Shown here piece after piece: positions 870-18,204 of a stretch of DNA of 36,143 nucleotides. Below the pieces are notes generated by a model. That model was given only the letters and a program-made list of their open reading frames with translations. It did not search any database and was not told where the DNA came from. A program made the translations under genes and the position numbers. Every line of letters begins with the position of its first letter. Position 1 is the stretch's first letter. The stretch is from Acidimicrobiaceae bacterium (lineage in GTDB: Bacteria > Actinomycetota > Acidimicrobiia > Acidimicrobiales > Bog-793), in NCBI GenBank assembly GCA_003136185.1, contig PLDN01000174.1:1-36143 (forward strand), written 5' to 3'.

Positions 870-1733
870 TCAAAGCGCGGATTCGCCGGGAAAGAGCTCC
901 CTGTCGAGCAATGGGCTGACTACCACGCGCCGGATGCCGGCCACGAGAGCCCGCTCGAGGATCTCCTCCGCACCTCCAGTACCAGGGACGCCTGGAACCC
1001 CGGCGGCTCCGGACGGTGCGGCGACAGGCACCAGGCGGCTCCGGACGGTGCGGTAGAGGTAGGTGAAGATCTCCCGGAGCACACGGCCGTGACCTGGCCT
1101 GCGCTGTACGGCGAGAGCCATGAGGTCGAGCATCAGCGCGAGGTTCGGCTCGAGCGCGTCCGCCAGGATCGCGAGCGCCTCATCTGGCGTGAGAAGGCTC
1201 TTCCTGGCCTCCGAGGCGAGGAATCGCTTCCCGGCGACGTCTGCGACCTCGCGGGCGGAAGCAAAGAACAGCTCCTCTTTCGACGCGAAGTGCCGGTAGA
1301 AGGACCCTTTTGCGATCTTGGCCGCTTGGCAGACGTCGTCGACGCGGACTTCGGCGTATCCACGCCTCGTGAAGGCGTCAACCCCGGCCTCGAGCAGTCG
1401 GGCAGCCGGAGACGTCTTGGCACTCGAGCGCGCCCTTGCCTCCACAAGCTGCTCCCACATCTCGGGGCGAAACGCGCCGTCCGCCGGCAACTCGAGCAAT
1501 TCCGGCAGGATCTTGCGGATGGCAGAAAGCCGGAGTTTGCGGCGCTCCTTCAACAGGTGCACCAGCCTCAGCGACTCGACGTGCCGCTCGTCGTAGAGAT
1601 GACGGTTCGCGGCGACACGGTAACCGGGCGGCACGAGACCGGTCGAGATGTAGTACCGGATCGTCGACGGCGCGATTCCCGTGCGGGCCACCACCTCCGA
1701 CATGGTGAACGTCGGGCCAACCGTCGCTCTCAC
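870..1733 (-). CDS. Transcriptional regulator with N-terminal MerR-type HTH and C-terminal TetR-type domain
   Basis: TFTMSEVVARTGIAPSTIRYYISTGLVPPGYRVAANRHLYDERHVESLRLVHLL (MerR HTH) followed by RLLEAGVDAFTRRGYAEVRVDDVCQAAKIAKGSFYRHFASKEELFFA (TetR HTH). Start ambiguous: GTG 1733, ATG 1703 or ATG 1760. Confidence 0.85.
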   Translation of the reverse strand: MRATVGPTFTMSEVVARTGIAPSTIRYYISTGLVPPGYRVAANRHLYDERHVESLRLVHLLKERRKLRLSAIRKILPELLELPADGAFRPEMWEQLVEARARSSAKTSPAARLLEAGVDAFTRRGYAEVRVDDVCQAAKIAKGSFYRHFASKEELFFASAREVADVAGKRFLASEARKSLLTPDEALAILADALEPNLALMLDLMALAVQRRPGHGRVLREIFTYLYRTVRSRLVPVAAPSGAAGVPGVPGTGGAEEILERALVAGIRRVVVSPLLDRELFPGESAL

Positions 1734-1758
1734 CACCTCGGACAGTAGCCTTGACCGC

Positions 1759-2622
1759 ATGGCACGGGTTGCCGTCGTAACGGACTCGAGCACCTGCCTG
1801 CCGGCGGTGCTTATTGAGAAATTTGGGATCATCACCGTGCCTGTCACCGTCCACCTACCCGGAGCCGACGGAGTCGACGGCTCGGACCAGCTCTCGCGTC
1901 GCATCTCCGAGGCGGTCGAACGAGATCAGTACGTCCGATCGAGCCACCCTTTCATCACCGACTACCTCGCCGCGATCGAAGAGTCCGGGTCCGAAGAGGT
2001 CGTCGTCGTGACGCCGGCGATGGAGTTCGCCGGAATGTTCCGCAACGCGTCGCTCGCGGCGGAGCTGACTTCGCGCCGGGCGGTCGTGGTCGACTCGAGG
2101 ACGGCGGCTGCCGGTGAAGCGCTTGTTGTGCTCACCGGTTCGCAGGCCGCCCAAGCCGGCGCCTCGCTCGCGGAGGTTGTCGCCGCCATCGAGGAGGCCT
2201 CACGCCATGTGGACCTTGTCGCGACCCTCGAGACCTTGGACCCGATCCGCCGGAGTCACCGCGTCCCCGCACCGATCCTGAGCGGCTCGCCGCTCGCCGG
2301 AGTGCGGAGCTTGTTCCGGATGTGCGATGGCACCGTCGAACTGCTCGGGGAGGTGGGGGGCGAATCCGCCGCGTTCGACCGGATCCGCGCGGCTTACCTG
2401 GCCGGAGGAGGTGCGGGGTCAGCATGGTCGACCGTCTTTCATGCAGACAGTCCCGACGCCGCCGAGCGCCTGTGTGGGATCCTCGGTGACGTCGACTTCG
2501 TCTCTGGTTTCTCGGCAGCGATGCAGGTACACACTGGTCCGGGTGTCATCGGGGCGGCCTGGATCCCGGGCTCGGAGCAAGACGGGGCCCGCCAACGCCC
2601 AACAGACGTTGCAAACGGGTAA
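1759..2622 (+). CDS. DegV family (fatty-acid-binding) protein
   Basis: MARVAVVTDSSTCLPAVLIEKFGIITVPVTVHL...YVRSSHPFITDYLAAIEE...VVVVTPAMEFAGMFRNASLAAE...VVDSRTAAAGEALVVL; DegV pattern. Confidence 0.85.
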   Translation: MARVAVVTDSSTCLPAVLIEKFGIITVPVTVHLPGADGVDGSDQLSRRISEAVERDQYVRSSHPFITDYLAAIEESGSEEVVVVTPAMEFAGMFRNASLAAELTSRRAVVVDSRTAAAGEALVVLTGSQAAQAGASLAEVVAAIEEASRHVDLVATLETLDPIRRSHRVPAPILSGSPLAGVRSLFRMCDGTVELLGEVGGESAAFDRIRAAYLAGGGAGSAWSTVFHADSPDAAERLCGILGDVDFVSGFSAAMQVHTGPGVIGAAWIPGSEQDGARQRPTDVANG

Positions 2623-9474: not shown

Positions 9475-10392
9475 GTGGGCCCCGAGCCGGTCGACATCGA
9501 GTACGAGACGCGCCGCATCGCCGGGCCTGGCGGGGTCGAGCTGGCGGTCGACGTATGGGCGCTTCCGAGGAGAGCCGTGCCGGAACGCCCCGGCTTTGTT
9601 CTCATCCACGGCCTGGCATCGAATGCGCGCCTCTACGACGGCGTCGCCGCTCGCCTCGTCGACGCACACCACGCGACCGCCACTCTTGACCTGCGGGGCC
9701 ACGGGCGCTCGGACAAGCCTGACGATGGCTACGACTACGACACCATGTGCGCCGACGTGGCGGCCGTGCTCGACATTCTCACAGGCGACCTCGGCCAGGA
9801 AGCCTTCGGGCGCCCGGTGGTCGTCGGGCAGTCCTTCGGCGGGAACCTCGTCCTCGAGCTCGCCGCCCGCTACCCCGATCGCGTCTCAGGTGTGGCGTGC
9901 ATCGACGGCGGCACCATCGATCTCGGTCCGCGCTTTTCCTCCTGGGAGGAACTGAGTGAGGCACTCGCACCACCGAAGATCGAGGGCGCGAGGTATGAGG
10001 AGCTGGAGTCGCGTTTCTTCGAGTGGCACCCGGATTGGCCCGAAGCCGGCATCCGAGGCTCACTCGCGAACTTCGAGGTACGCCCGGACGGCACCGTCGC
10101 TCCTTGGCTCACCCTCGACCACCACCTGAAGATCCTTCGCTCCATGTGGGAGTCACCCGCGACGGCCCTCTATCCGAAGGTGAAGGTGCCCGTGCTGCTG
10201 TTGCCGGTGGACTCGCCAGGGGCGCCGGCTGCTTGGTCCGAGGCGAAACGTGAGGGCACCGACCAAGCCCTCGTCGCCCTGGAACAAGCGCAGGTCCACT
10301 GGTTCTCGCCGGCCGAGCACGACGTCCACGCGCAGCACCCCGACCAGGTGGCTGAGGTGCTGCTGGGGGCGCTCGGTAACCTCTTTACTTGA
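9475..10392 (+). CDS. Alpha/beta hydrolase
   Basis: FVLIHGLASNARLYDGVAARLVDAHHATATLDLRGHGRSDKP...VVVGQSFGGNLVLELAARYPDRV: nucleophile elbow GQSFGG and HG oxyanion motif. Confidence 0.88.
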   Translation: MGPEPVDIEYETRRIAGPGGVELAVDVWALPRRAVPERPGFVLIHGLASNARLYDGVAARLVDAHHATATLDLRGHGRSDKPDDGYDYDTMCADVAAVLDILTGDLGQEAFGRPVVVGQSFGGNLVLELAARYPDRVSGVACIDGGTIDLGPRFSSWEELSEALAPPKIEGARYEELESRFFEWHPDWPEAGIRGSLANFEVRPDGTVAPWLTLDHHLKILRSMWESPATALYPKVKVPVLLLPVDSPGAPAAWSEAKREGTDQALVALEQAQVHWFSPAEHDVHAQHPDQVAEVLLGALGNLFT

Positions 10393-13300
10393 CGCACGCC
10401 GGTTCGGCGGCTCCTCTCTCGCTTGCGTTGCTCGTGTTCCAGAGATCGTGGTGCTCCTCTGCCCACGATCCGCTCGAGTCACAGGCTGGAGTCGTGGTGT
10501 TCCAGGCAAAGAGCTCGCCTGAGCGGTTGCCGACCACGAGCGCCTGATCCGAGTTCGTCCCGAAAGGCCCGAGAACCGGTCCGTAGAGCACCCAGCCTCC
10601 GGTGAACTTCGGATACCCAGCAAGCTCGGTGCCTGTCGGGGTGTAGGCGCGTAAGTCGTACAGGCCGCTCGTCTCGATCAACTCGTCCTGCCCCTTGCCC
10701 GCGAGATCCGCCATCAAAGGCGCCCCGACGAACTGCAAGTCGTTCATGAGGTCAGGAGAGCCGTCGTCCATTTGCCCGTTGGACGACCACGAGGAGACCT
10801 GGTTGTCGTTTGGTCTCTGCTCACCTGGCTCCGCCTCGTCGAGGAGGCGGCCGAAGCTGGAAGCCGGCGCCGCGATGCTGACGCCCGAGCCCTTTATCGT
10901 GCCGAGATGGCCGACGACGGGTGAACCGAGCGCCGGGATGGAGGCTTGCAGGAGGTTCCCAAAGCCTACGGTCTGACCCTTCGAGACGAATGACGCCACG
11001 TTCGGCACGCCGCCGGTGTCACCGAGGTAGGAGGTGCCGTTGGCGTTGAGCTCGTAGATGGGACCGGCTGCCGAAGAAGTGACGACTTCGAGAGTCTTCT
11101 TGCCGTTCAAGCTGCCAAGCGCGGGGGTTCCCGTGACGCCGTCGCCGATAGTTGGGAGCAGGTTGGCATCGAGGTCCACGATCGACGCCGGCCAGCCCTT
11201 CAGGAAAGCACCCGGGTCGGGCATGCCGCTCGGGTCAGGGGCGCCCTTGGCTGCGGTGTGGAGGGAGCCGTTCGGCTCGATCGCATAGACGCGTGAGTTC
11301 GAGATGTTGAGATCGCTCCCGACAAGCGCGCCGAACGTGCCGAGGTCGGCGTTCGCAGGGCCGGCGTACTCCTCGTCGGCACCGACGATGACGTCAGGTG
11401 GTCCAGAGCCTCCAGAGAGATTGCCGATGGACGGAGTGTCGACGAGTTCTGAGCCCTCGTCCGGGTCGGCGTTCGCCTTGAACGTGATCTCGTTCGTGAC
11501 CGGGTCGACCGACTGCACCCTCGAGGGATCGACGACGAGGACCGGCCAGCCCGGGACCGCTTTGCCGTCGGGCTGGAAGGCGTAGACGTGGCGGTCCATC
11601 GAGGCCGCCACCACGTCGAGCGTCTTTTCGCCTTGAAGCTCGGCCAGGGCCGGCGCCGATACGAAGCCCGGTAATAGGCGATTGTTGGAGTTGCGTGCCG
11701 ACGGTTCGGAGAAGGCAGGGTTCACGTGTTGCGGCCAGCCGGGAAGCAGCTTGCCCTTCGAGTTCCAGGCGTAGACGTTGCCCATGGAATCGGTCGCGAC
11801 CACGTCGAGCGAGTGGCCCGAGGGGTCACTCAGGTCGCCGACAGCGATCCCTCCGATGATCTCTCCGTGTGGCAGGGATGTGATCGCGTGGGTCGCGAAG
11901 GCACGTTCCTTGCCGTGCACGTAGAACGACTTGGTCTCCACCGGCCAGCCCGGAAGCTCGGTGTGGTCGGGCAGGTAGGCGCCGATCGTCCCGTCCGACT
12001 GGGGGACGATGAGCACGTCCTCGCCACCCGGACCTATCGACGCGAGCCGGGAAGATGCGACGAGAGAACTCGAGTAACGCCACGGGAATCCGGGCAGCAG
12101 GCTTGGGTCGTCGTGCAGGAAGTCAGCTTGCTGCGAGACGCCGACGAGACCAGCGGAGTTCAGCACGAGCACTCGGATGCTGAAATCGAAACGGTCGTCG
12201 TTCGGCTCACCCGTGCTCGTGACAGGTCCGCCCTCGATCGACTCGTGCGCTGCCGCGAACATCGCCGCGAGCCGTGCGACGGGAATGGTGCCGAGCGTTC
12301 CGGTCTTCCCACCTGCAGAGGCGGTTCCCTCGGCGACGAGGTGCCAGGAATTGTCCGCCGGCGCGACACCAATGCCCACGTCGACCTGGTACTTGACGGC
12401 CCGTTGGCGGGGCGAGCCGACGGTGCCGATGACCGGGATGTTCGTGGAAGTGTTGAACGTAACAAAAGAGCCCGGTGAGGTTATGAGCGCCTGAGGGGGC
12501 ACTCGGCCCTCGCTCACCCACTGCACCGCGCGGGCGGCGTCGAGGCGCCCCCAGCCGGTGTAGATGTCGTAGCCCTTCGTCGTCGGGTACATCGTCGTGG
12601 TCCCGATCGGGATACCGGTGTTGCTGACGGCGAAGTTGTCGCGCGGTGCCGGCGGAGTCGCCTTCGGGGCGGCCGTCGTGAAGTCGACGTCATCGACTGA
12701 CATCGTGAGGATCTGCTTCACCTCGTTCGCCGAGAGCGGGACGGCTCGTCCGGTCGCCGAGGTGTAGCCGGAGGGCTTAAGTTTCCCGTCCGCCATCGCT
12801 GTCGCGGCCTCTGACTCGATCAGGCCGACAGTGCCGGAAGTCTTGCCGGTTGCTTCTGACGAGCAGCTCGCGCTTTCGACCGTCAGGTCGATCGACGCGC
12901 CGTAGTTCGTACAGCCGTTCAGGTACAGCGCTGACTCCGGTGTCCAAGAAGTCTCCTGCGTCGAAGAGTTGACATCGATGATGTCGGCGCTCGCAGCTGC
13001 CGGCAGGTTGGCGTGCTCGGATTCCTCGTCGGCCGCGCTGCCGACGATCGGCACCTGGTTGGCGGCCGCATACTCGATCGCCTGGGTGTCCGTCGGCGTC
13101 TCATCGGTCGTCCCAAGAGCCTCGGATATGACAGTGGCACCAGAGTCGACGGCAAAGAGCACGCCGTCGGCGAACGGGTTGCCGGTCGTGATGAAGCTCG
13201 TGCCGACTCGCACCGGCATGATCATGCAGTCGGGGCACGCCCCCACCTCGTCGTTGAGCGAGTCGGCGGAGCCCGCCATGTCGAGCGCCTCACCAGTGCC

Positions 13301-14299
13301 GTGCCCGTAGTGGACGTCGTCGTAGGCGTTGTCGTTGTTGTCGACGAAGTTCCAACCGGAGATCGCGCCCTCAAAGCCGGTCGGGCTCTCGGTCGTGATG
13401 GCGTAGGGGTTCTTCGCACCGCTCGGAAGGGTCTTGTCGCCGAAAGTCCGGATGAGGTCCTCCGGCGAGATCCCGGTGTAGCTCCCGTCCTGGTTGGCGG
13501 CGGTGGCACAGAACAAGCCGCCCGTGTAGTCGGCCGCGACGGCGGCGACGCGAGGGTCGTTCGCGTACTGACTGACGTTGAGGATCCCGCTGTCGTTCAG
13601 GTCGTACGGGTCGCTGTCGAGGAACTTCTGGCCGCCAGCCATGAGCTGTGCCTTCGTCTCGCCTGCGGAGTTCTCGGGCGGTGGCAGAGCGTTGCGGTTG
13701 AGGTAGAGCTTGTCGACGATGCCCGCATCACACCATTCGATTCCCGAGTCGAGCACTGCGATAACGGTGGTAGGTCGTCCAGTCGTCGTCTGCCAGGCGC
13801 TGTCGACGCTGTTGCCCTCGACGCCGCAGAGCTCCTGCGGGTTACTCGTGACAGACGTGTCGCTCGGGTAGCGCAAGCTCGTTAGCTTCCAGTTGTTGCC
13901 GTCAGTACCGAAGTTCGCTGGGACTGTCGGCGGCGCTGTCTTGGCCGTGTGGTCGTTCGCGGCGTAGCCCATAGGGTTCTTGCCCACCGGCGGCGCCGGC
14001 CAGAGGGGGATGCCGGTCAGCGAGTTGGTGTCGCTCGCCTTGTGAGCCTTCTTCTTGGCCCGCGTCGACGGTCCCGTCGTACCCGTCGTGAGGGGCGGGC
14101 AAGTCGCCGGACGCGTCGGCATGGCACCTGCCGCGTACTTCCAGGCTGGTGCGAGCGGGAGCGGCGGGGCTGCCTTGCCGGCCTGCGGGGTGGCGGCCGA
14201 GCCAGCACCGGCCAGCACCGGTACCAGCAACCCGGCACTGAGCAATGGGACTACGAGCGCCTTGCGAACAACCGAACCGAGACTTCTCCTGGTACCCAC
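10385..14299 (-). CDS. Secreted S8 subtilisin-like protease with C-terminal beta-propeller-like (FG-GAP/PQQ-like) repeats
   Basis: Signal peptide RRSLGSVVRKALVVPLLSAGLLVPVLAGAGSAA; Asp motif TTVIAVLDSGIEW; His motif YGHGTGEALDMAGSA; candidate Ser region TGKTSGTVGLI; repeats LPGFPWRY, LPGWPVETK, LPGWPQHV, VPGWPVLVV, LKGWPASIV, LAGYPKF. GTG 14299 preceded by ggagggg. Confidence 0.85.
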   Translation of the reverse strand: MGTRRSLGSVVRKALVVPLLSAGLLVPVLAGAGSAATPQAGKAAPPLPLAPAWKYAAGAMPTRPATCPPLTTGTTGPSTRAKKKAHKASDTNSLTGIPLWPAPPVGKNPMGYAANDHTAKTAPPTVPANFGTDGNNWKLTSLRYPSDTSVTSNPQELCGVEGNSVDSAWQTTTGRPTTVIAVLDSGIEWCDAGIVDKLYLNRNALPPPENSAGETKAQLMAGGQKFLDSDPYDLNDSGILNVSQYANDPRVAAVAADYTGGLFCATAANQDGSYTGISPEDLIRTFGDKTLPSGAKNPYAITTESPTGFEGAISGWNFVDNNDNAYDDVHYGHGTGEALDMAGSADSLNDEVGACPDCMIMPVRVGTSFITTGNPFADGVLFAVDSGATVISEALGTTDETPTDTQAIEYAAANQVPIVGSAADEESEHANLPAAASADIIDVNSSTQETSWTPESALYLNGCTNYGASIDLTVESASCSSEATGKTSGTVGLIESEAATAMADGKLKPSGYTSATGRAVPLSANEVKQILTMSVDDVDFTTAAPKATPPAPRDNFAVSNTGIPIGTTTMYPTTKGYDIYTGWGRLDAARAVQWVSEGRVPPQALITSPGSFVTFNTSTNIPVIGTVGSPRQRAVKYQVDVGIGVAPADNSWHLVAEGTASAGGKTGTLGTIPVARLAAMFAAAHESIEGGPVTSTGEPNDDRFDFSIRVLVLNSAGLVGVSQQADFLHDDPSLLPGFPWRYSSSLVASSRLASIGPGGEDVLIVPQSDGTIGAYLPDHTELPGWPVETKSFYVHGKERAFATHAITSLPHGEIIGGIAVGDLSDPSGHSLDVVATDSMGNVYAWNSKGKLLPGWPQHVNPAFSEPSARNSNNRLLPGFVSAPALAELQGEKTLDVVAASMDRHVYAFQPDGKAVPGWPVLVVDPSRVQSVDPVTNEITFKANADPDEGSELVDTPSIGNLSGGSGPPDVIVGADEEYAGPANADLGTFGALVGSDLNISNSRVYAIEPNGSLHTAAKGAPDPSGMPDPGAFLKGWPASIVDLDANLLPTIGDGVTGTPALGSLNGKKTLEVVTSSAAGPIYELNANGTSYLGDTGGVPNVASFVSKGQTVGFGNLLQASIPALGSPVVGHLGTIKGSGVSIAAPASSFGRLLDEAEPGEQRPNDNQVSSWSSNGQMDDGSPDLMNDLQFVGAPLMADLAGKGQDELIETSGLYDLRAYTPTGTELAGYPKFTGGWVLYGPVLGPFGTNSDQALVVGNRSGELFAWNTTTPACDSSGSWAEEHHDLWNTSNASERGAAEPACVK

Positions 14300-14350
14300 G
14301 GTGACTTCCCCTCCGACTCCTGCTCGGTGGAGGTTTACCACGAGGTTGGT

Positions 14351-15823
14351 TCAGCCTGTCGGGTTCTCGACCATCGACTCGAAGAGGATTGTGCCAGTCG
14401 CGTTGTCACGAACGAGGAAGAGGAACGGGTGGTTGATGACGATCGGGTGCACAGCTTCGACTGCGGATACGCCGATCGCGATGCCGGTCGCGGCGGCCGC
14501 GACGGTGCCCTTGGGCGAGACTTGAAGGTAGGCGTGCTGCTCGACTGCCTGCACCTGGAGCGCCACCTTGGGATTGATCCCGCCGAAGTCTGCGTCCGGC
14601 CCGAACGCCTGCGCCATGCCCATCGAGGACAAAGAGGCATTCAGCTGGTCGTCCGATCGGATCGTGAATGTCGGCATGGACAGCTCGACCTCGGCCGGCG
14701 AACTCAGGCCTTTCACGATCCTCGCGAGAGAGCTGGGCGTGAGAGCCGACACGAAGCTCGCGAGCGAGCCCGTGGTCGGCATCACGATTAGCGCGCTGAG
14801 CTTCTTGCCGCCGTACGGAAGCTCGACCGCGTCGTAGCTGTTGGTCTCAGCCACAGGGACTTTGAGCGGCTTCGGTGATCCCGTCGTGGCGGGGGCGCTA
14901 GGCGACTGGGAGGTCATGAACGGAACGCTCACGGTGGCTCCAGAAGGCAAGTAGAAGGTCCTGTCCTTCGTGGCGGTCTTGAACGCTGTCGCCCAGTGCG
15001 CGTCGAAGTACACAGCATCTGCAATCACGAGGCGCGTGAGGACGTCGAGCGCACCAGGGCTGAAGAGCTGCTTGATGAGTCCCTTCGTGTTCTCGCTCGT
15101 CCACTGGTTGATCGCATCGGTCGCGCCCGTGAGGTCGCTCTCGAAGTTCGCCTGCCACAGCCCGGTCCCGAAGTCGCTCGACAACGCATGGATGAAGGCG
15201 GGCTCGACGGCGAAGTGGTCCTGGACCCAGAGCGCGTTCGCCACGTTGAGCTCGGGCACCTTCGCAAGATCGCTGCCGCTCGTCGACGTCTCTTTTGCGA
15301 GGACCGCCGCGAGGCTGTGCCAGCCGGCTGCCTGCTCGCCAGCCGAGAAACCGGCTGTGCGAAGCGTCGCGGCGATGCCACTTGCCGTTGAGCCCTTCGC
15401 TCCGAGCTCGAGCATCGCAAGAGCCGTGGCCAGGCTGGAAGGTGAGACGAGCGTGTTGGTCGAGTTGCCCGAGCTGTCCAGGTGGTCGAGAAGATCGAGC
15501 GAGAAACCAACCTCGGCGCTCTCCACCCCGCCCAACACCCTCGGGGACGCGGCTGCGACGGCTTGCGGCGCTGCCGTCAGCTCGTAGGCACTGCCGATCC
15601 GGTCAGCGGTGTAGACGTGACCCCCGTGTGTCCCGCCGGGCCTTGAACTGCCCGGGATCAGAATGCCCCCGAGCACGAGCGCGAGAACTACCGCGACACT
15701 GCCGCCTGCGCCCAGCACCCGTCGGCGCCGGATCACGTAGCTGCGGTGCTTCGTGCGGGCAAGGAGCTGCTCGGGTGCGGCCGGTGAGTACTGCCGCTCG
15801 GACGATTCAGGCTTGGAGCTCAT
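14351..15823 (-). CDS. Membrane-anchored serpin (serine protease inhibitor family I4)
   Basis: Short Arg-rich cytosolic N-terminus, one TM (VLGAGGSVAVVLALVLGGILI), then serpin fold: NTLVSPSSLATALAMLELGAKGSTASGI...NALWVQDHFAVEPAFIHAL...VIADAVYFDAHWATAF...HAYLQVSPKGTVAAAATGIAIGVSAVEAVHPIVINHPFLFLVRDNATGTILFESMVENPTG. Confidence 0.92.
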   Translation of the reverse strand: MSSKPESSERQYSPAAPEQLLARTKHRSYVIRRRRVLGAGGSVAVVLALVLGGILIPGSSRPGGTHGGHVYTADRIGSAYELTAAPQAVAAASPRVLGGVESAEVGFSLDLLDHLDSSGNSTNTLVSPSSLATALAMLELGAKGSTASGIAATLRTAGFSAGEQAAGWHSLAAVLAKETSTSGSDLAKVPELNVANALWVQDHFAVEPAFIHALSSDFGTGLWQANFESDLTGATDAINQWTSENTKGLIKQLFSPGALDVLTRLVIADAVYFDAHWATAFKTATKDRTFYLPSGATVSVPFMTSQSPSAPATTGSPKPLKVPVAETNSYDAVELPYGGKKLSALIVMPTTGSLASFVSALTPSSLARIVKGLSSPAEVELSMPTFTIRSDDQLNASLSSMGMAQAFGPDADFGGINPKVALQVQAVEQHAYLQVSPKGTVAAAATGIAIGVSAVEAVHPIVINHPFLFLVRDNATGTILFESMVENPTG

Positions 15824-16331
15824 GGAAGTACTCCTCTTCGAAGTCGCTGCCGATGTTGGCGCGCAGTGCCGCCAACGCTCGGTGGAGATGGGTCTTGACG
15901 GTGCCGGTTGATAGGCCGAGTGCCGCCGCGACGTCTGCTTCGGGAAGGTCGCAGAGGTAGCGGAGGACGATCGTTTCTCGCTGGCGTCGCGGCAGGTGGA
16001 CGAGGGCCGCCGCGAGGGCTGCCCGCAGCACGACGTGGTCTGCCTCGTCCGGGCTGTGCTGGGGCGCGAGCATCAGAGGCTGGCGGCGCACGTGGCGCAG
16101 CGCCTCGCGGGAAGCGACTTTCAGGACCCAGGCGTCACGCCACGGGAGGGGTGCGACCCGTGACCAGCGGGCGTGCGTCCGAGCGAGGGCCTCGACAGCC
16201 ACGTCCTCGGCCGCCCAGGGGTCCCCGGTCACCCTGCGTGCCACGCGGATCGTGAGCGGGAGCATCCGACCGAAGAACTGGTCGAAGTCCTCGTCGGGCG
16301 GTGGTGCCGAGTTGCCGCCTTGGTCCATCAC
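15807..16331 (-). CDS. SigE-family ECF-type RNA polymerase sigma factor
   Basis: FDQFFGRMLPLTIRVARRVTGDPWAAEDVAVEALARTHARW...LVHLPRRQRETIVLRYLCDLPEADVAAALGLSTGTVKTHLHRALAALR: sigma region 2 and region 4 patterns. Confidence 0.92.
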   Translation of the reverse strand: MMDQGGNSAPPPDEDFDQFFGRMLPLTIRVARRVTGDPWAAEDVAVEALARTHARWSRVAPLPWRDAWVLKVASREALRHVRRQPLMLAPQHSPDEADHVVLRAALAAALVHLPRRQRETIVLRYLCDLPEADVAAALGLSTGTVKTHLHRALAALRANIGSDFEEEYFHELQA

Positions 16332-16371: not shown

Positions 16372-18102
16372 TCAAATGATTCGCCGAAGGCGTGCTGCCG
16401 GGTTCGCCGATGTTGGGACGGTCGTCTGCTTGGGTGGCAGGTGTCGGGAAGTCGTGGACGAGCCCGATGTCGCTGGCACGATCACCGTTACCGACTGCGC
16501 AGGCATCGTGTAGGAAAAGACATTCTTGCTCGATGTCTTGAGCCCCTTTGCGGCCTGTGCCGTCGAAGATGCCCTCGTGAGCTTGTAGACCGCCGCGCTC
16601 GTCGCGCTCTGCCCACCCTCGAGGTCGATGGTCGTCGGCGTGGCGGTCAGGCTCTTGTTGATCGCCACGATGACCACGTGACCGGGGTCGGCCTTGTCGA
16701 TCGACGCGTATACAGACGAGTCGACCTTGTTGGTGGTCGTCGCCGAGACCTCCATGTTCCCGAACGACGCGCCCTTGCCGTTGTAGTTGCGGTACATGGC
16801 AAAGGCGCCAAAGGTGTAGCTCTCGTTCGAGTTGAGCGGCCACACCGCCGAGGCGTGAACGCCGTAGCGGCCGAAGATCCCGAGCACGTCTGCGGTCGCG
16901 ATACCGCCGCTGATGGACTGGCCTCCCCCGTAGTTCCACTCACTCAAGTCCAGGTTCATGCCGGGGTTGTACTCCTTGATCATCCCTTGCAGGCGAGGGA
17001 TCAGGTCGATTCCCTTGTTATCGAGCGTGTCCTGCGTGATCCAGCTGTCCTCGACGTAGGACTTGTCCCAAAGCGAGCGTGGCGCTTGCTCGCGGGCCGC
17101 GACGACAGCAGGCGCCGTGCCGGTCCCGGTAATCCGAATGCCGCCGCCCGTAGCCTCGGGATACCAGTGCAGATCGAGGTCATTGACGAGCGTCTTTTTG
17201 GCTTTCTTGTCAGCCAGCCTCACCTCCCTCATCCACCAGTCGAGGAAATCCCCATCGGCTGCCGAGTCCGACGCGCTCTGAAGCGTGAGGTACCCCTCCC
17301 ATCCGTAGTTGACGGGCCCAGTCACGAGTGCGTCGGGCAACACGGCCTTGACTGCCTTCGCGTACTCGAGGTCCTTAGAGAGCAGCTCGGCGTAGGTGGT
17401 CGCCACGGGATGGATCTCGGAATGCGTCGAGTCCCACAGGTCCGGTTCGTTGTCGAGCGAGAACATGATCGGCTCTTTGGGCACCTCGTGGTGGAGGACG
17501 TAGACGAATTGGTCCTGGTAGACGTACTTGTCCTTCAGGTTTGGCGTCAGCGTGGGGCCACCGGGCTCGGTCGGCTCGTCGATCCGGAATCGCGTGGAGA
17601 GGTAGTCGGGCCCGGAGTTTTCGACATTTCCTGGCGGATTGCGATCTGCTGAGACGTAGCCGGCGATAGGGACAGTCACGAGCGCCGTCGCACCTTCGGC
17701 TTCGGCCGCCTTGACCGTGGGCACGACAGCTGCGGCCGGCTTCGTCGAGGCCGTGAGGAAGTCGTCGTTCTCGTACTCGTAGTCGCTGCCTGCGTTCGAG
17801 TCGTTGTTCTCCCAGTTGTACGCCGTCCAGCGATTGCCGCCCATGCGAATAAGACCCGGCCGGGTCTCGGCCACCATGGTGTTGAACGAGGACACCGAGC
17901 CGACGCTCTTATCGGCGTTGACTCCGTAGATCAACGGGGAGATCGCGCGCAAGCCCTTCGACGTGTTGATGACGAAGGTGACCGTCGCCGTCTTCGGGCC
18001 GCTTCGTGCCGTGGTTGCGGCGCCGAGGAGTGGGACCATAAGGATTGCAGCGATCCCAGCTGGGATTAGTTGCACCCGTCGCGCACCTACTTGCCGCTTC
18101 AT
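16372..18102 (-). CDS. Secreted glycoside hydrolase family 44-type enzyme
   Basis: Signal peptide MKRQVGARRVQLIPAGIAAILMVPLLGAATTARS; AISPLIYGVN...RPGLIRMGGNRWTAYNWENNDSNAGSDYEYEND...FSLDNEPDLWDSTHSEIHP...LDLHWYPEA...LDLSEWNYGGG, typical of GH44 (candidate acidic residues in NEP and SEW). Confidence 0.88.
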   Translation of the reverse strand: MKRQVGARRVQLIPAGIAAILMVPLLGAATTARSGPKTATVTFVINTSKGLRAISPLIYGVNADKSVGSVSSFNTMVAETRPGLIRMGGNRWTAYNWENNDSNAGSDYEYENDDFLTASTKPAAAVVPTVKAAEAEGATALVTVPIAGYVSADRNPPGNVENSGPDYLSTRFRIDEPTEPGGPTLTPNLKDKYVYQDQFVYVLHHEVPKEPIMFSLDNEPDLWDSTHSEIHPVATTYAELLSKDLEYAKAVKAVLPDALVTGPVNYGWEGYLTLQSASDSAADGDFLDWWMREVRLADKKAKKTLVNDLDLHWYPEATGGGIRITGTGTAPAVVAAREQAPRSLWDKSYVEDSWITQDTLDNKGIDLIPRLQGMIKEYNPGMNLDLSEWNYGGGQSISGGIATADVLGIFGRYGVHASAVWPLNSNESYTFGAFAMYRNYNGKGASFGNMEVSATTTNKVDSSVYASIDKADPGHVVIVAINKSLTATPTTIDLEGGQSATSAAVYKLTRASSTAQAAKGLKTSSKNVFSYTMPAQSVTVIVPATSGSSTTSRHLPPKQTTVPTSANPAARLRRII

Positions 18103-18204
18103 GCCCGCACTGCCTCTCCAACCGCGACCCACAAGGTCGCCGTTCACAGTCTCGCGCCGGTGATGACACAGAGACCGGCGATCCTCATGGGAGGCTTTCC
18201 CACC

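Follow-up and report, generated by a model that had tools for sequence, protein, structure and literature searches.

A stretch of 36,143 nt of an Acidimicrobiaceae bacterium (contig PLDN01000174.1 of assembly GCA_003136185.1; referred to as the window) carries on its minus strand the gene of a SigE-like ECF sigma factor, which overlaps the gene of a membrane serpin. We consider it fairly probable that the two proteins form an ECF sigma/membrane partner unit, in which the partner is of the anti-sigma type and its outer domain is a protease-sensing serpin. The gene overlap, the topology signals, the full serpin domain with an inhibitory-type hinge, the likeness of the N-terminus to that of the partners of related sigma factors, and the repeated pairing of the two genes were read from the sequence, and from them we infer sigma binding, the sign of the control, protease sensing, and the release step.

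The sigma gene (15807-16331, minus strand) encodes a protein of 174 aa and starts with a GTG codon at 16331, with an alternative ATG at 16328. Regions 2 and 4 were identified by a Pfam search (PF04542, PF08281, PF04545), and TIGR02983 (SigE family) was the top NCBIfam model (E = 2.7e-40), its score of 137.9 bits being slightly below the curated cut-off of 141.55. The adjoining gene (14351-15823, minus strand) encodes a membrane serpin of 490 aa, the putative sigma-controlling partner, as defined by its open reading frame and Pfam. A 17-bp overlap of the sigma gene with a next gene starting at 15823 had been claimed in the preliminary description, and both open reading frames were in fact found at these coordinates; the overlap of the sigma 3′ end with the partner 5′ end extends from 15807 to 15823 (minus strand). 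An SD-like sequence, GAAGAGGAG (15831-15839, minus strand; position counted by hand), is located within the sigma gene 7 nt ahead of the partner ATG. Upstream, a GGAAC-type ECF promoter was not found in the window, and in the relative G020 there was a single weak match far upstream.

Residues 1-37 of the partner (15713-15823, minus strand) are predicted to form a cytosolic N-terminus, based on hydropathy, an Arg cluster, and the fit to a profile of non-serpin sigma partners. Within it, the motif EQLLARTKHRSYVIRRRR (residues 18-35; 15719-15772, minus strand) is common to other SigE-linked partners, and 0 of 1000 shuffles scored as high. The sequence RRRR precedes the only hydrophobic segment, which is predicted to form a single TM helix at residues 38-57 (15653-15712, minus strand; Kyte-Doolittle value of 2.29 over 19 residues from residue 38). 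The short Arg-rich N-terminus of about 38 aa followed by one TM helix that had been described before was thus recovered as 37 residues and a hydrophobic segment at about 38-57, assigned by hydropathy. Hydropathy and the Arg cluster are the signals for an N-in single-TM topology, and in an AlphaFold2 model the N-terminus and the TM segment have no settled structure; a single helix at residues 17-30 was predicted with low confidence. Beyond the predicted TM helix, the model contains a membrane-proximal strand pair at residues 71-83 (15575-15613, minus strand; strands 71-76 and 79-83), and a comparable motif is present in relatives.

The claim of a complete serpin held true: the domain, predicted to be extracytoplasmic, comprises residues 106-488 (14360-15508, minus strand) and matches Pfam PF00079 over profile positions 5-370 of 370 (E = 1.6e-84). 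AlphaFold2, run with a 37-sequence alignment, modeled the serpin part with confidence (mean pLDDT 81.7), and a Foldseek search placed the model nearest to solved, loop-cleaved serpins, with MENT first and the bacterial miropin just after (E values from 3.6e-32 to 1e-30, TMt 0.91-0.94). The reactive center loop was assigned to residues 437-464 (14432-14515, minus strand), with the hinge PKGTVAAAAT and a predicted P1-P1′ bond Ser453-Ala454. Compared with the inhibitory hinge consensus ExGTEAAAA (P17-P9), the window sequence GTVAAAAT fits at P15-P8, whereas P17 is Pro instead of Glu, as it is in the window group of serpins. A P15-P8 hinge of the type GT..AAAAT is canonical in this group and retained in most sigma-linked serpins; of the alanines at P12-P9, some are missing in G008 (AGGG) and L224 (ATAA). 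A second serpin in the genome of the window is represented by the C-terminal 26 residues at a contig edge (L043, G000:C132, positions 3-80), and this fragment is 58% identical to the window serpin.

The deviations in the hinge are relevant for an alternative that we regard as improbable, namely, that the partner controls the sigma factor but the serpin is a binding or structural domain rather than a protease sensor, or that the partner acts as an activator or a tether and not as an inhibitor. The proline at P17, the altered alanines in G008 and L224, the propeller domains of sister partners, which are not inhibitors, and an N-terminus that is not any known anti-sigma domain would all be in agreement with it. 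It accords poorly, however, with the canonical P15-P8 hinge in the window group and most of the other serpins and with the fit of the domain to loop-cleaved inhibitory serpins.

The search for serpins covered 147 related genomes and gave a match in 19 of them, including that of the window and five other members of its family. Adjacency to a sigma gene was found at 11 loci of Actinomycetota, comprising the window, nine other intact units, and G029 with a sigma remnant, and these loci belong to five lineages of sigma factors and to about three of serpins. At all nine loci where both gene ends were readable, the genes overlap by 1-29 nt. The unit of G020 is intact, with a sigma factor 78% identical to that of the window and the identical 17-bp overlap, and so is that of G008, whose genus is more remote within the same family (sigma about 37% and serpin about 35% identical, 29-bp overlap). 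In G218, G162, and G270, members of another family of the same class, the overlaps are 1-4 nt. Further units were found in named genomes, i.e., the Pseudonocardiales MAGs L195 and L224 and the Jatrophihabitans MAG L196, and in G600 (L305) from a phylum-wide sample, where inspection of the frames by hand gave an 11-nt overlap. In L224 (3-1778), the sigma regions and the TM serpin are located within one open reading frame, which may be a real fusion or the result of a one-base indel in a MAG contig that is cut inside the sigma gene. Conservation of the adjacency across Actinobacteria had been proposed earlier as a check, and the pairing is indeed kept in a related genus, in a more remote one of the same family, in a second family of the class, and elsewhere in the phylum.

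These data also bear on the view that two unrelated genes became neighbors by chance. Sigma-adjacent serpins are few (11 of 193), and the glycoside hydrolase and subtilase genes flanking the unit in the window are not common to the relatives. On the other hand, a rough estimate from the 21 SigE-model matches in the 3.8-Mb genome of the window gave an expectation of about 1 adjacency in 193 serpins, compared to the 11 observed, and the pairs occur in five sigma lineages, overlap wherever this is readable, and share one distinctive topology. The sigma-serpin pairing is thus beyond chance; we consider chance adjacency extremely improbable and rejected it because of the recurrence in five sigma lineages.

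The count included the 193 distinct serpins whose upstream sequence was long enough; a lipobox was present in none of the 11 sigma-adjacent ones and in 126 of the 182 others (Fisher P = 5e-6, a value that overstates the evidence because the relatives are not independent). This difference is left unexplained if the partner is an inhibitor that, anchored in the membrane, protects against environmental proteases, with an N-terminus that is a signal anchor and an operon simply driven by the sigma factor, as are its recurrent association with sigma factors of different lineages and an N-terminus like that of non-serpin sigma partners. We regard such a protective function as unlikely, albeit as a serious competitor, since most serpins of the class and the phylum are lipobox-anchored with no sigma gene nearby, and bacterial serpins in cellulosomes inhibit subtilisin-like proteases (PMC12484212). 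The window protein resembles miropin and the cellulosomal serpins in its full serpin domain, in the apparently inhibitory type of its hinge, and in the predicted location of this domain outside the cell; those proteins are, however, secreted or anchored inhibitors without a sigma partner, whereas the window serpin is predicted to form the outer part of a single-TM protein linked to a sigma factor.

A protective function is further supported by purifying selection on the serpin that persists after sigma loss. In G029, all that is left of the sigma gene is a 3′ remnant within a fusion with an unrelated ORF; the gene is degraded in G002, and in both the serpin is intact, suggesting that the serpin has a use without that sigma factor. 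Comparisons involving G029, G002, and G034 gave a dN/dS ratio of about 0.16-0.18 for the serpin domain, with about 0.18 for G029 and G002, which indicates purifying selection; the G034 contig begins inside the serpin, so that its sigma region is not covered. This survival of the serpin is the chief objection to the anti-sigma-type reading. A domain acting as both inhibitor and sensor would reconcile a serpin that outlives its sigma factor with a role as a sensor. The N-terminus changes faster than the sigma factor or the serpin domain even where the sigma factor is kept, which also counts against that reading, and its conserved part is therefore a motif rather than a stretch of strong identity. 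In the two relatives with sigma loss, the decay to a remnant beside an intact overlapping serpin gene was observed at L024 (4777-6159) and L023 (upstream of 9110).

Returning to the anti-sigma-type unit, we found that SigE-type sigma genes in the genome of the window repeatedly have, no more than a few bases downstream, the gene of a single-TM protein whose N-terminus is short and rich in Arg and whose outer domain is of another kind. These SigE-linked proteins of the window's family share with the serpin partner the N-terminus, the TM segment, and the overlap with a SigE-like sigma gene but differ in their outer domains, which are mostly BNR propellers and not serpins. BNR-propeller-like partners also predominate beside those sigma factors of the family that are most similar to that of the window; Pfam confirmed one such partner, and the rest were judged from repeated Asp-box motifs. 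We know of no tested function for the SigE-linked single-TM proteins of this family. At L095-L097 of G000 and at L160-L187 of the family, a SigE-type sigma gene commonly overlaps a following gene for a single-TM protein, and the outer domains of these proteins vary, BNR propellers being frequent.

When the N-termini of eight non-serpin partners were combined in a profile, the N-terminus of the window serpin matched it with E = 1.5e-6, a value to be read with regard to the fact that the N-terminus profiles were built from 8 and 5 sequences chosen after inspection. Its score was reached by 0 of 1000 full shuffles and by 0 of 1000 shuffles in which the Arg cluster was kept beside the membrane. 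With the same eight-sequence profile, six of eight sigma-linked serpins outranked every unlinked control, and the inclusion threshold was passed only by the window, G020, and G029. The N-terminus of G270, whose sigma factor belongs to another lineage than that of the window, scored 35.3 bits with the partner profile of its own sigma lineage (0 of 500 shuffles) compared to 8.1 bits with the window-type profile. G218, G162, G008, L196, and L305 gave no strong match to either profile. Where this can be tested, the N-terminus thus appears, by its sequence, to go with the sigma lineage.

In the sigma tree, the serpin-linked loci are scattered over five lineages. The serpin tree disagrees with it, as is expected if the sensor is exchangeable: the window group is placed together with G008, L195, L196, and L224 (support 0.84, moderate), the trio G218, G162, and G270 is separate (support 0.85, moderate), and G600 stands apart. 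An N-terminus that tracks the sigma factor and a separate phylogeny of the serpin suggest that the serpin moved from one sigma unit to another or was gained more than once. The data fit a chassis of the anti-sigma type whose sensor can be exchanged and in the window would be a serpin. We tentatively propose, as quite possible if short of probable, that membrane proteins controlling ECF sigma factors took up serpins as their outer domains on several occasions and that such a protein is a one-shot receptor, in which loop cleavage and the stressed-to-relaxed change relay a signal from the protease through the membrane.

A membrane anti-sigma factor adjoining the sigma gene is the commonest form of ECF control (PMC8103513). 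The preliminary description had placed the serpin in this position, a reading that is now partly supported by the conserved adjacency and by the N-terminus, whose likeness to that of the partners of closely related sigma factors favors an anti-sigma-type role. Its comparison with RsgI-type anti-sigma factors (Clostridium thermocellum) stood with respect to the layout, in which a protein with one TM helix is encoded beside the sigma gene and its extracellular sensor domains are exchangeable, but not with respect to the domains: the RsgI N-terminal domain is absent from the partner in Pfam-A, the sensors reported for RsgI proteins bind carbohydrates or are glycoside hydrolases and not serpins, and no class I, zinc finger, RsgI, or other known anti-sigma domain was detected at the partner N-terminus with Pfam or NCBIfam. 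In class II, to which the anti-sigma factor CnrY belongs, a domain of fewer than 50 residues can suffice to bind an ECF sigma factor, with two helices that contact sigma4 and sigma2 (PMC7406223); the N-terminus of the window partner, with its one low-confidence helix, is comparable in size.

Most likely, the N-terminus of the partner, held by the single TM helix, would bind the sigma factor and keep it inactive at the membrane, while the serpin would display its bait loop outside the cell. An extracellular serine protease cutting this loop would be trapped by the serpin, and sigma binding could then be lost through the stressed-to-relaxed change or through the presence of the trapped protease. 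Release of active sigma factor would probably involve regulated proteolysis of the stalk and the TM segment. The nearest precedent for enzyme sensing is RsiV of Bacillus subtilis, a membrane anti-sigma factor of SigV whose outer domain directly binds lysozyme, the enzyme it reports on, and from which regulated proteolysis frees the sigma factor (PMC6066255); the function of the window protein would be analogous. The outer domain of RsiV is, however, not a serpin and binds lysozyme noncovalently, and in a Pfam search RsiV-type outer domains were absent from the partner, PF00079 being the sole outer match.

The physiological role of many prokaryotic serpins, most of which have N-terminal transport peptides, is described as "enigmatic" (PMC8233489). 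If our proposal is correct, the sensing of extracellular proteases would be a concrete job for a subset of bacterial serpins, and an irreversible inhibitor would have been turned into a transmembrane signal receiver. To our knowledge, no other system is known in which an irreversible inhibitor has this role. In the open-access literature, we found no report of a serpin in the anti-sigma position or beside an ECF sigma factor, which is weak evidence of novelty, as subscription papers mostly lie outside it. The finding also draws attention to the SigE-linked membrane proteins as a set whose outer domains are swappable.

In the window, the unit is flanked by a gene for a GH44-like glycoside hydrolase (16372-18147, minus strand; PF12891), 40 bp upstream of the sigma gene, and by a gene for a subtilase-like protein (10385-14341, minus strand; PF00082), 9 bp downstream of the serpin gene. 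A conserved operon including these two genes was considered and rejected, as neither was found beside the sigma-serpin genes of the relatives within the flanks searched. The subtilase-like protein, which has a long C-terminal repeat region, seems to have SGTVGLIE in place of the usual catalytic Ser motif GTSxxxP and to lack the oxyanion Asn, as judged by eye; the alignment stops before the Ser region. It may therefore be an inactive protease, and for the same reason it is disfavored as the target of the serpin. Elsewhere in the window, a single ORF (870-1904, minus strand) combines MerR-type and TetR-type DNA-binding domains.
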